Source: Bordetella sp. 02P26C-1 (GTDB lineage: Bacteria > Pseudomonadota > Gammaproteobacteria > Burkholderiales > Burkholderiaceae_B). From it: a stretch of DNA of 64,000 nucleotides. Numbering within the stretch: position 1 is the first letter of the stretch; the number at the start of each line of letters is the position of its first letter. Shown one piece after another: positions 7,546 through 13,753 of the stretch. The position numbers and the translations under genes are program-made. Below the pieces are notes generated by a model. The model made no database searches. It saw only the letters and a program-made list of their open reading frames with translations, and had not been told where the DNA came from. The stretch lies in the NCBI RefSeq assembly GCF_009763255.1, contig NZ_WSJB01000003.1:1-64000 (forward strand), read 5' to 3'.

Positions 7546-8355
7546 TCAGGCTCGCTTTTGCTGGGCATAGCCCTTGAGCACTTCTTCACGCAACACACCC
7601 CAGATCGCGGCATGCAGTTCCACGAAGCGTGGGTGGGTGCGCACCTCGGCCACATCGCGGGGACGCGGCAGGTCAATCGCGAATTCGCCGATCGGATGCG
7701 TGCCGGGGCCGGCGGACAGCACCACCACGCGGTCACTCATGGCGATGGCTTCGTCCAGGTCATGCGTGATGAAAAGCACGGCCTTACGCTTGGCCATCCA
7801 TAGTTCGAGGACCTCGTTTTCCATCAGCTGACGCGTCTGGATATCGAGGGCCGAAAATGGCTCGTCCATCAAAATGATGTCGGGATCGCGGATGAGGGTT
7901 TGCGCCAGCATGGCGCGTTTGCGCATCCCGCCAGACATCTGGTGCGGATAGCGTTCCTCGAAGCCGCCCAGACCCACGCGACGCATCCATTCGCGGCCGC
8001 GTTCTAGCGCTTCTTCGCGCGGCACGCCGGCAAACTCCAAACCGGCAATCACATTTTCCAGGGCGCTGCGCCACGGCAGCAGCGCCTCGCCCTGGAACAT
8101 GTAGCCGGCTCGGGTGTTGATGTCTTGCAGCGGCTGCCCGAAGACCTTGACCTCGCCCGAGGATGGCCGCAGCAAACCGGCGCCCACATTCAAAAGCGTC
8201 GATTTGCCGCAGCCCGTGGGGCCGACGACCGAGACAAACTCGCCGGGCGCGATGGACAGCGTGGTGTCCTGCACGGCGGTATAGCGTTTGCCCCCGCCGT
8301 CGCGCGACACAAAGGTACACGTGATATGTTCGAATGAGAGTGCAGCGTCAGGCAT
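7546..8355 (-). CDS. ABC transporter ATP-binding protein (SsuB/TauB-type)
   Basis: This ABC ATPase has Walker A GPTGCGKSTLLNV, the Q-loop MFQGEALLPW, the signature MSGGMRKRAMLAQ, Walker B DIILMDEPFSALD and the H-loop FITHDLDEA. The call begins at MPDAALSFEHITC (ATG 8353-8355), which overlaps the 3' end of the binding-protein gene by 8 bp. The further 25 upstream in-frame codons have no family resemblance. It energises the importer formed with the adjacent permease and periplasmic protein. The cargo is not determined by the sequence. Confidence 0.93.
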   Translation of the reverse strand: MPDAALSFEHITCTFVSRDGGGKRYTAVQDTTLSIAPGEFVSVVGPTGCGKSTLLNVGAGLLRPSSGEVKVFGQPLQDINTRAGYMFQGEALLPWRSALENVIAGLEFAGVPREEALERGREWMRRVGLGGFEERYPHQMSGGMRKRAMLAQTLIRDPDIILMDEPFSALDIQTRQLMENEVLELWMAKRKAVLFITHDLDEAIAMSDRVVVLSAGPGTHPIGEFAIDLPRPRDVAEVRTHPRFVELHAAIWGVLREEVLKGYAQQKRA

Positions 8356-9388
8356 TGGGATACTTCTCGTTAGCGCGACGGGCGAACTCGTTGGTCCAGG
8401 CCTTGGCCGGATCGATCTTCGCGGCGTCAAAGCCCTTGACGTAGGCAGCCAGCGCGCGGGTCGCGGTAGCAGCGCCGTCTTCAGGGATCATGCCATTGGG
8501 CGACAGGCCGTCCATGCTTTTTTGCAGCGCGGTTTTGTAGACCTCGGGTTCGCCCAGCAGATACTGAGTGGGCACCGTTTTGGCGATCTCATCTATGCTG
8601 ACTTCGTGAATCCACTTGTCGGCGCGGACCATGGCGTTGGTCAAGGCCTGCACGGTATTGGGATTCGCATCGATGAAGGCCTGCGGCGCGTACAGCGAAC
8701 CGGCGGGCATATCGCCACCAAAGATTTCGCGTGTGTCCTTGAGGGTACGCGTATCCACGATCACGTCGATATCGCCTGCGAGCTCCAGCATCGACACGAC
8801 GGGGTCGGTGTTCGAGATCGCATCGATTTGACCGCTGCGCAACGCGGTCACCGCGCCAGCACCCGCACCCACGCCGATGAACGACACATCGCTATCTTTC
8901 AAGCCATGCTGGGCGAGGAAGAAGCTCACGACCATGTTGGTGGAAGAACCGGGCGCGGTGACGCCGATTTTCTTACCCTTCAGGTCAGCAGGACTTTTGT
9001 AGTTGGGCATCGTTTTCTTCGACACGCCAAAGCCCACCATGGGGGCACGTCCTTGCAATACGAAGGCGCGATAGAACTGGCCTTTGGATTGCATATGCAG
9101 CGTGTGTTCAAAAGCGCCGGAGACGACATCGGCGCTGCCACCCACCACGGCCTGCAGGGCCTTGGAGCCGCCGGCGAAGTCCGCAATACTGACGTCCAGG
9201 CCTTCGTCTTTGAAATAGCCTTTGATTTCCGCGATGGTCAGCGGAAGGTAGTAAACCAGTGCTTTGCCGCCGACGGCGATCTGAACTTGCTTCTTTTCCA
9301 GGGCCTGGGCGCGAACGATGGCGGGGGCCATGCTCAATGCACCGGCAGCACCGGTCAATTTCAGCAAATCACGACGGGTGATCGACAT
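8348..9388 (-). CDS. ABC transporter substrate-binding protein (NMT1/THI5-like)
   Basis: This 346-residue periplasmic protein begins MSITRRDLLKLTGAAGALSM, a twin-arginine-type leader (RRDLLK) cleaved near VRAQA. The mature part has the NMT1/THI5/SsuA two-lobe pattern: YYLPLTIAEIKGYFKDEGLD at the start, GGSKALQAVVGGSADV, and GVTAPGSSTNMVVSFFLAQH in the second lobe. Family members bind aliphatic sulfonates, nitrate, riboflavin or pyrimidine precursors, and nothing here singles out one of these. It is the first gene of a three-gene operon with overlapping junctions. No TPP-riboswitch motif was recognised upstream. Confidence 0.9.
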   Translation of the reverse strand: MSITRRDLLKLTGAAGALSMAPAIVRAQALEKKQVQIAVGGKALVYYLPLTIAEIKGYFKDEGLDVSIADFAGGSKALQAVVGGSADVVSGAFEHTLHMQSKGQFYRAFVLQGRAPMVGFGVSKKTMPNYKSPADLKGKKIGVTAPGSSTNMVVSFFLAQHGLKDSDVSFIGVGAGAGAVTALRSGQIDAISNTDPVVSMLELAGDIDVIVDTRTLKDTREIFGGDMPAGSLYAPQAFIDANPNTVQALTNAMVRADKWIHEVSIDEIAKTVPTQYLLGEPEVYKTALQKSMDGLSPNGMIPEDGAATATRALAAYVKGFDAAKIDPAKAWTNEFARRANEKYPNA

Positions 9389-9653
9389 TTAGCATCTCCT
9401 TTGCCGCATGGCGGCGTGGACGTCCATGGCGACTGCGCAGTCGTCCTGGCGTCATTTATGTGTGCATTCATCCAGGGTCGGCAGAGGGTGGCGGGCTGAA
9501 TGCCGATCCAGACGGCGCCTCCTGCCGGGCGGGATCATCATACTCCAGTGGGTATCTTGGCTGCTCTCAGGGGGTGGATAGCGGTGCGCGGGAAGCGGCT
9601 TGATGAGGTACGGAGGGGCTGATGTTGCTGGCTTAGGGGAGCGTTCTTTTGAC
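9389..9653. other. intergenic region upstream of the ABC importer operon
   Basis: No gene is supported here. The segment next to 9388 should carry the promoter of the importer operon, but no convincing -35/-10 pair or riboswitch was recognised. The short open frames lack start signals and family resemblance. Confidence 0.5.
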
Positions 9654-9786
9654 GTCCGGGGCCGGTGTGCGTGGGCGGTGCCAGCCCTGTCGCAACGGCT
9701 CGGCCCATGATCAGGGGCCTCGGCCCCCTTCGGGGACTTCCCGTCGCTCTACGGGCCGGCACCGCCCACGCACACCGACCCCGGAC
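9654..9786 (-). repeat. structured palindromic element, copy 1
   Basis: A 133-bp element with 29-bp outer arms (9654-9682 and 9758-9786) that are inverted repeats with one mismatch. Between them is a core of about 75 bp that is also present, in the opposite orientation and with about six differences, in copy 2 at 10012-10142. The core itself contains a short hairpin (GTCCCC-GAAG-GGGGxC type, read on the minus strand). The outer arms differ in sequence from copy 2 although each is self-complementary. Confidence 0.85.
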
Positions 9787-10011
9787 TCTTGATGAGGCAT
9801 GCCGCGGTTGCAATGAATAGGCGGGGGTGCGCTGAATATCCCCCGGCAAAGGCGTATTGCGTCGCATGGCGTATGCTTCAGGTATGCCTTGACGATGCAG
9901 AGAATGCCAAGGTGGACCAGTGCTGCGATGCGCCGGCTGGGAGATCAGTCGTATTGTTTGAGACTGCAAGCATTCGCGAAAGCGCACACCCATCAAATTA
10001 CGCTGACGCAA

Positions 10012-10142
10012 GCAGGAGGCGGGCGAGTAAAGGGGCAGCGGCCCGTAGAGCGGCGGGAAGTCCCCGAAGGGGACCGAGGCCCCTGCTCGTGGGCCGAGCC
10101 GCTGCGACAGGGCCGCTGCCCCTTTACTCGCCCGCCTCCTGC
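10012..10142 (+). repeat. structured palindromic element, copy 2
   Basis: A 131-bp element with perfect 33-bp inverted arms (10012-10044 and 10110-10142) around the same core as copy 1, here on the plus strand. The core includes GAAGTCCCCGAAGGGGAC and GGGCCGAGCCGCTGCGACAG. It ends about 43 bp past the recR stop, so it may also act as a transcription terminator or a 3'-end RNA stabiliser. The size and symmetry suggest a REP/MITE-like non-coding repeat family. Confidence 0.85.
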
Positions 10143-10185
10143 GTCTAAAGAACGCAACGAGCAGCCAGCAAAATCCCCACCGAAC

Positions 10186-10794
10186 CTAAGCCGACTTACG
10201 CTCCATCAACGCCCAAGCAATCGTCCCGGCATCCACGTACTCAAGCTCACTCCCCGCAGGCACCCCCCGCGCCAGACGCGTAACCTTAAGCCCCTTATCC
10301 GCCAAGGTATCACCCAAGAAATGCGCCGTCGTCTCACCCTCAGCGGTGAAATTCGTCGCGAGAATCACCTCTTGCACAACCCCATCCGTCGCGCGATTGA
10401 TCAGGCGTTCGAAATCCAGCTCTTTAGGCCCTATGCCCTCTAGCGGCGCGACCCGCCCCATCAGCACGTAGTACAGCCCGCGATAACCGTGACTGGCTTC
10501 GATCATATTTTGATCGGCCGGCGTCTCGACGATGCACAGCAGCGAGGCATCGCGCTTGGGATTCGAACAGGTCGCACAGATGGTGTCTTCCGTGAAGCCA
10601 TTGCAGCGCGCGCAGTGGCGCAAGTTCTGCACCGCCGCGGAGAGCGCCCGGCTCAGCATGTCGGCGCCCTGCAGATCATGTTGCATCAGATGGTAAGCCA
10701 TCCGTCGGGCCGAGCGCACGCCTACCCCTGGCAGACGGCGCAGCGACTCGATGAGCGAGACCAGAGGCTCGGGTTCAGGCAGTTCGGAATCCAT
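10186..10794 (-). CDS. recR: recombination mediator protein RecR
   Basis: This 202-residue protein has the RecR domain order: a helix-hairpin-helix ([19 protein letters not shown]), a four-cysteine zinc finger ([16 protein letters not shown]), a Toprim domain ([15 protein letters not shown] and [20 protein letters not shown]), and a C-terminal Walker-B-like segment. With RecO/RecF it loads RecA onto SSB-coated gapped DNA. It is co-oriented with dnaX and ybaB, the classic bacterial dnaX-ybaB-recR order, 68 bp after ybaB. The palindromic element at 10012-10142 follows its stop codon. Confidence 0.97.
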
Positions 10795-13547: not shown

Positions 13548-13652
13548 GGGAAACCGGATGACGAGCCTTACTCCGGCACTGATCCTAAACGACTATGGCT
13601 GCTTCGTTCCCGACCTGACCAGGTTCACCGCCGAACCATGCGAAGGGGCCCG
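13548..13652 (-). ncRNA. ffs: signal recognition particle 4.5S RNA
   Basis: The minus strand carries the diagnostic SRP domain IV hairpin: GGTGAACCTGGTCAGGTC, then GGGAACGAAGCAGCCAT, closely matching the Escherichia coli 4.5S loop (GGUCAGGUCCGGAAGGAAGCAGCC), which binds Ffh. Flanking complementary segments make the long helix. The ends are estimated from pairing and could be off by about 15 nt. It is the RNA of the co-translational membrane-targeting particle. It sits between dnaX and the AddA-like gene. Confidence 0.92.
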
Positions 13653-13753
13653 TCAACCAGCATTCTAGCAGAGCGGGCGAAAGCCCGCTTGCGGGGGTCG
13701 TTGACACACTTTATCGGGCCGGGGTAGTCAAATCCCGATGATCATCGACATCA

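Follow-up and report, generated by a model that had tools for sequence, protein, structure and literature searches.

A REPIN-like pair of palindromes in Bordetella whose arms are probably renewed by copying from one another

Two large palindromes stand close together beside recR in Bordetella sp. 02P26C-1. They share a core, in opposite orientations, and their arms differ in sequence from one palindrome to the other yet in each case pair with themselves. An earlier sequence-only reading took this as a sign of selection on the folded DNA or RNA, and thought of a REP-like mobile repeat or a structured RNA. The question is what keeps the arms of such an element complementary while their sequence changes. 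The features of the locus are listed below; the window is the whole 64-kb stretch of DNA analysed, and L and G numbers denote loci and genomes.

8348-9388, minus strand: NMT1-like ABC substrate-binding protein gene, left neighbour of the pair
9621-9653, minus strand: outward 3' flank of element 1, with the family motif AAAAGAAC and a tail ending GCCAGCAACATC
9654-9786, minus strand: element 1 (flank type B), arms 9654-9687 and 9753-9786, core 9684-9758
9787-10011, no strand: spacer of 225 bp between the divergent elements
10012-10142, plus strand: element 2 (flank type A), arms 10012-10044 and 10110-10142, core about 10039-10113
10143-10175, plus strand: outward 3' flank of element 2, carrying TAAAGAAC and GCCAGCAAAATC
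10186-10794, minus strand: recR, with its 3' end 43 bp past element 2

We found that both palindromes are real and that the figures first given for them are correct to within a few bases. The arms of element 1 are 34 nt long and 94% complementary, those of element 2 are 33 nt long and 100% complementary, and the common core spans 75 nt with 93% identity (five differences). The flanks of the two elements also form an inverted repeat of each other (45 nt, 71% complementary). A family model built from 29 copies of two genomes matches element 1 at 9659-9781 on the minus strand (125.9 bits) and element 2 at 10016-10138 on the plus strand (125.8 bits); as had been supposed, it finds no third copy in the window at E <= 0.001. 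A 20-mer of the core, with up to three mismatches, has two matches in the window against a mean of 0.02 in shuffles. Folded as DNA on either strand, each copy is far more stable than its dinucleotide shuffles (z -9.0 to -12.2), none of which, among 200 in every case, was as stable as the real copy. No Rfam family reaches its gathering score at either element, and the sub-threshold matches are mostly microRNA hairpins (E down to 2.9e-6, at about half the gathering score or less). A search with the sigma-70 pattern found no promoter-like site in 9380-10200. Further along the window, past dnaX, a signal recognition particle RNA lies at 13557-13654 on the minus strand.

At the orthologous site of the sister species B. 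genomosp. 4 the same two neighbours are present without any element between them. Seven other Bordetella (loci L173-L179, compared with window positions 9264-10186) carry an additional gene beside recR, CoA-transferase-like by eye, which sits between recR and a region resembling the start of the substrate-binding gene and is absent in this genome and in B. genomosp. 4.

The search for further copies that had been proposed was productive. The 4.1-Mb genome itself contains at least 13 copies, at 13 distinct places with E <= 7.3e-8, and 8 of these places form four divergent pairs whose spacers differ strongly from locus to locus. With stricter filters, the model has matches in 17 of 268 genomes of the bacterial family, comprising all nine Bordetella, 5 of the 15 from a second genus and a single one from each of three other genera. 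G031, which is among the 17 (12 model matches), was rejected as a carrier because the two loci read there hold a different, GGGGTCAGACCCC repeat, which brings the carriers to 16 and the further genera to two. The GGGGTCAGACCCC-type palindromic units of G031, which belongs to another genus of the family, occur as inverted copies (L166:2372-2447, L167:161-302 and 2324-2407). When 399 genomes sampled evenly across the order were searched, the own genome was the sole match at E <= 1e-4, and a search for plasmid and phage carriage with one copy as query gave no match. A pattern match in a Phycisphaera contig (L102) has no model match and was taken as chance. The per-genome copy numbers of the model search include some palindromes scored on both strands. 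Arrangement was counted on 116 matches, selected from 170 rows by omitting G031, overlapping loci and duplicates on the opposite strand; excluding a further 10, of which 4 lay at edges and 6 had long cores, gave a set of 106 copies. We conclude that the palindromes belong to a family of dispersed, probably non-autonomous repeats found in Bordetella and in a small number of related genera.

The unit is 131 bp long, and 98 of the 106 copies have stems of 33-41 pairs. Its plan runs from an arm of about 30 nt through GGCCC-type closing pairs, a GTTG/GTAG-type loop, a 7-bp stem and two hairpins to a GCGACA-type loop, closing pairs and the complementary arm, mostly followed on the outside by GACGYC-TAAAGAACC; one copy in the own genome is an exception, having lost part of an arm. 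A conserved tip of about 75 nt with two hairpins is thereby carried on a stem of about 36 bp of locus-specific sequence. The GTWG position is an internal loop between two stems and appears as GTTG, GTAG, TTTTG or ATTG. In several copies the second hairpin has at its base the Watson-Crick pairs of CTCG/CGAG in place of CGAG/CGAG, which may form tandem G-A pairs (alignment columns 64-66 and 86-88, by eye). B. genomosp. 4 also contains variant elements (L107:7111-7318, L101:2326-2533, L091:4000-4207, L098:6207-6415) with arms of the usual kind, in which the tip is swapped for a structured core of about 160 nt with GGGCATGT(T/C)TGAG..GCGAGTTTGCCC. The presence of this alternative core on the usual arms makes the tip look modular.

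Pair clusters in the loci examined are divergent in 35 of 37 cases and same-orientation in the other 2, and single elements occur as well. Most clusters are extragenic, with 74 of 79 overlapping no gene predicted by a rough gene caller, which missed recR. Pairs and single elements have both spread recently. In B. genomosp. 4 one pair is found at three loci (506-578 bp, 93-94% identical), and L109 has a single element that matches one member of that pair (182-228 bp, 95-99%). The inverted doublet appears to behave as a mobile unit, which is the mark of a REPIN, in three recent copies, one of which (L091) begins at a contig end; since, in addition, L099 (another contig end) and L097, one of the three, have about 140 bp of left flank in common, part of the duplication may be segmental. 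Inspection of the recent copies and the empty sites by eye showed no clear target-site duplication. In the second genus, some orthologous sites hold two, one or no elements, and at the L114 site of G136 both palindromes have apparently been lost, one of them between GACG repeats. Such deletion scars show copy loss, so that empty sites can be losses, and the family is both spreading and decaying. The suggestion of a REP-like mobile repeat is borne out to this extent: the elements occur as doublets, are mainly intergenic and are mobile.

The sequence-only reading had also staked its case on co-varying arms. In 29 copies of two genomes, collected by BLAST and a core motif with the arms not used, 98.5% of 1361 cells are paired, compared with 72.5% after shuffling. 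Double changes affect 37 of 47 pairs and amount to 336 cells (94.1 shuffled), and the covariation score of 0.682 falls to 0.168 on shuffling and to at most 0.098 on sliding by 1-3 columns. Paralogous arms are 65-71% identical in 7 of 8 genomes, where shuffled arms give 61%, and 84% identical in G004 (5 copies); paralogous cores are 84-97% identical. Further copies and co-varying arms are thus both present.

Orthologous copies reveal how the arms change. Some of the apparent orthologous loci between genera (L107/L112, L100/L120, L105/L158) turned out to be neighbouring intergenic regions, and rates were therefore taken from G135, G136 and G146 only, in 18 comparisons that passed a flank-score cut-off (17 of them G135 against G136; one element of the L112/L124/L267 locus is counted twice). 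Identity between orthologs is 92.5% in the arms, 91.2% in the near flanks and 96.7% in the cores, which are thus the most conserved part. Among 522 arm pairs, 476 are unchanged, 28 have changed on both sides and still pair, 17 have changed on one side and 1 has changed on both sides and become unpaired. Independent change of the two arms would give 2.7 double changes instead of the 28 observed. In 17 of the 18 comparisons, 7 of 22 double changes involve a transversion, as do 112 of 252 flank substitutions, and among the 15 single changes 10 leave a plain mismatch instead of G-U. Given transversional double changes and plain-mismatch single changes, compensatory evolution by way of G-U need not be invoked. 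The trend recurs with other element finders, one giving 41 double and 24 single changes in 17 comparisons, two of which have apparent arm indels, and another giving 30 double and 25 single changes in the 18 alignable of 21 comparisons, some with off-centre palindromes.

We also found that at three orthologous loci out of 17 (L116/L225, L114/L213 and L118/L239) the arms have stayed in place with an inverted core between them, the 17 being our own grouping of the comparison list. These three failed the flank-score cut-off and lie outside both ortholog sets, in which inverted cores number 0 of 18 flank-filtered comparisons and 0 of 21 in the other set. Both same-orientation pairs (L118:2768-2889 and L145:2013-2134) contain one element whose flanks have the opposite orientation, that is, an inverted core, and that of L118 was checked against L239.

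Template switching between inverted repeats reportedly both homogenises the arms and inverts the spacer in yeast (PMC8604942). Coupled arm changes, transversions and inverted cores are what arm-to-arm template switching would be expected to leave, and on the strength of this comparison it is the best-supported mechanism for the paired arms and probably the right one; strong compensatory selection may contribute. With one arm apparently copied from the other, matched arm changes alone are no proof of selection. The step from co-varying arms to selection on the fold therefore holds in its first half only: the covariation is real, and selection is not supported as stated, because the arms diverge at about the rate of the near flanks, their changes are coupled and partly transversional, and some cores are inverted. 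Arm-to-arm copying explains the co-varying arms better than selection alone, and a signal of selection is better placed in the core and in a strand bias of the mismatches.

This bias is pronounced. On the core strand, helix 1 has 23 G-T against 1 A-C mismatches in 29 copies, and the arms have 54 G-T against 13 A-C in 106 copies (48 and 13 distinct, p = 8e-6), which are matches of a model that slightly favours G-U; the 54 and 13 were counted on fixed columns and become 51 and 10 when the arm ends are trimmed separately for each copy. Such a bias would not be expected from neutral template switching alone. At 21-40 nt in the outward 3' flank, the core strand is rich in C and A and poor in G and T (A 0.33, C 0.41, G 0.17, T 0.10), a composition that the inward flank lacks. 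The mismatch bias, the conserved core and the C/A-rich 3' tail together suggest that the core strand acts in folded form, as single-stranded DNA or RNA.

What these comparisons establish is the dispersal of copies, the recent duplication of whole pairs and of one single element, empty sites, coupled arms and core inversion. Our preferred explanation, which we consider probable, is that the pair is one REPIN-like doublet whose arms are renewed by template switching and whose core, with its strand, is under selection. One arm would serve as DNA template for the other, keeping the arms near-perfect and inverting the core along the way, and arm sequence would be nearly neutral while its pairing is renewed. 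Selection would act on the core and on its strand in the folded state, whether single-stranded DNA or RNA, and the folded core may be the recognition structure for a putative mobilising enzyme acting in trans. It is possible, though doubtful, that the folded tip is the only heritable part, so that the tip spreads and is uniform within a genome, the stems are kept or regenerated copy by copy, and the putative enzyme recognises the folded strand.

The elements might instead be structured RNAs, either independent sRNAs or 3'-UTR modules, with arm pairing maintained by compensatory selection on the RNA. The excess of G-T over A-C on the core strand, the conserved loops, the replacement of CGAG/CGAG by CTCG/CGAG in some copies (by eye) and a 3' flank that is C/A-rich and G/T-poor on the core strand only would all suit such an RNA. 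We nevertheless regard this as unlikely, because the arms are hardly more conserved than the near flanks, double changes, at 5.4% of arm pairs (28/522), approach the near-flank divergence of 8.8%, 7 of 22 double changes include a transversion, and cores have been inverted in place at some loci. The locus, moreover, lacks both an Rfam family at gathering score and a sigma-70-like promoter. Finally, single elements beside codirectional neighbours lie on the sense strand 15 times and on the antisense strand 14 times (by the rough gene caller), and this lack of strand preference speaks against a cis-acting mRNA element.

An ordinary GTAG-type REP or REPIN moved by a RAYT (Y1) transposase would fit the inverted doublets and singlets, the GTAG/GTTG before a stem with GCGA after it, the duplicated pair, and the single Y1_Tnp match in each of 6 of the 9 Bordetella. 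GTAG-REPs are described in the literature as palindromes of 20-40 bp with an unpaired GTAG at one end and a RAYT in the carrier genome (PMC3733652). The present units measure 131 bp, their GTWG is variable and lies in an internal loop, and among the own genome and the 268 family genomes searched, PF01797 (Y1_Tnp/RAYT) has no match in G000, G002 and G004; this reading is accordingly quite improbable. Mobilisation by a RAYT was rejected because the three carriers without PF01797 include G002, the richest in model matches of the 17, and the six single matches are not beside any element place among the matches listed. The IS91-type Y2 transposase PF04986 has no match in 11 of 12 carriers tested (only G003 is positive) and matches 0 of 14 control genomes. 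Open frames between distant elements of G002 (L168), considered as an autonomous parent, are housekeeping-like by eye, and integron attC sites were weighed by eye only, against their motifs, and set aside. It is very unlikely that the elements are Rho-dependent terminators or intergenic insulators, in which the hairpin would be a 3'-exonuclease barrier and the C-rich tail a rut site. In favour of such a role, 12 of the 28 pair clusters flanked on either side by predicted genes lie between convergent genes and 1 between divergent genes, the outward tail is C-rich and G-poor, and recent copies adjoin terminator-like sequences (by eye). Against it, the singles show no strand preference, one or both members are absent at orthologous loci of sister species, and 3' regions may merely tolerate insertion.

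A REPIN-like doublet with arms probably renewed by template switching bears on how covariation is read. It is common practice to regard covariation as strong evidence that a structure is selected, and here a mutational process may imitate selection: the stem of about 36 bp shows textbook covariation despite drifting near the rate of its flanks and carrying a tip that is sometimes inverted. The orthologous copies of sister species (18 comparisons) allow this to be measured directly. The family further prompts one to ask what moves a REPIN-like element when its host genome has no detectable RAYT, and if the folded tip were indeed the only heritable part, it would be a new kind of mobile palindrome.

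The repeat family is real, REPIN-like and unusual in build. In the open-licence literature, as far as its passages were accessible, we found no earlier description of its arms, doublets or core inversion, and the REP survey PMC12306157 makes no mention of Bordetella. Bor and Bor-1 are described as REP-like, intergenic, structured repeats of Bordetella, with a Bor-1 model of 117 bp and 196 (92) sequences in B. bronchiseptica (PMC1590033, PMC2267715). They may coincide with this family wholly or in part, a likeness drawn from the published description and not from sequence; arms, doublets, core inversion and mobility are described here and not in those Bor passages. REPINs and BIMEs are likewise non-coding palindromes that occur as singlets and as inverted doublets with a variable spacer, the doublet is proposed as the mobile unit, and compensatory changes are reported for REPIN hairpins (PMC3116915, PMC3733652). 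The Bordetella family differs in a unit several times longer, a multi-hairpin tip, a hypervariable stem of about 36 bp, a tetranucleotide that is not terminal and three carrier genomes in which Y1_Tnp is unmatched. With the inverted repeats of the template-switching study (PMC8604942) it has in common both arm homogenisation, seen here as coupled arm changes, and spacer inversion; whereas the published work concerns short repeats within yeast genes, template switching would here maintain an entire dispersed family of repeats.
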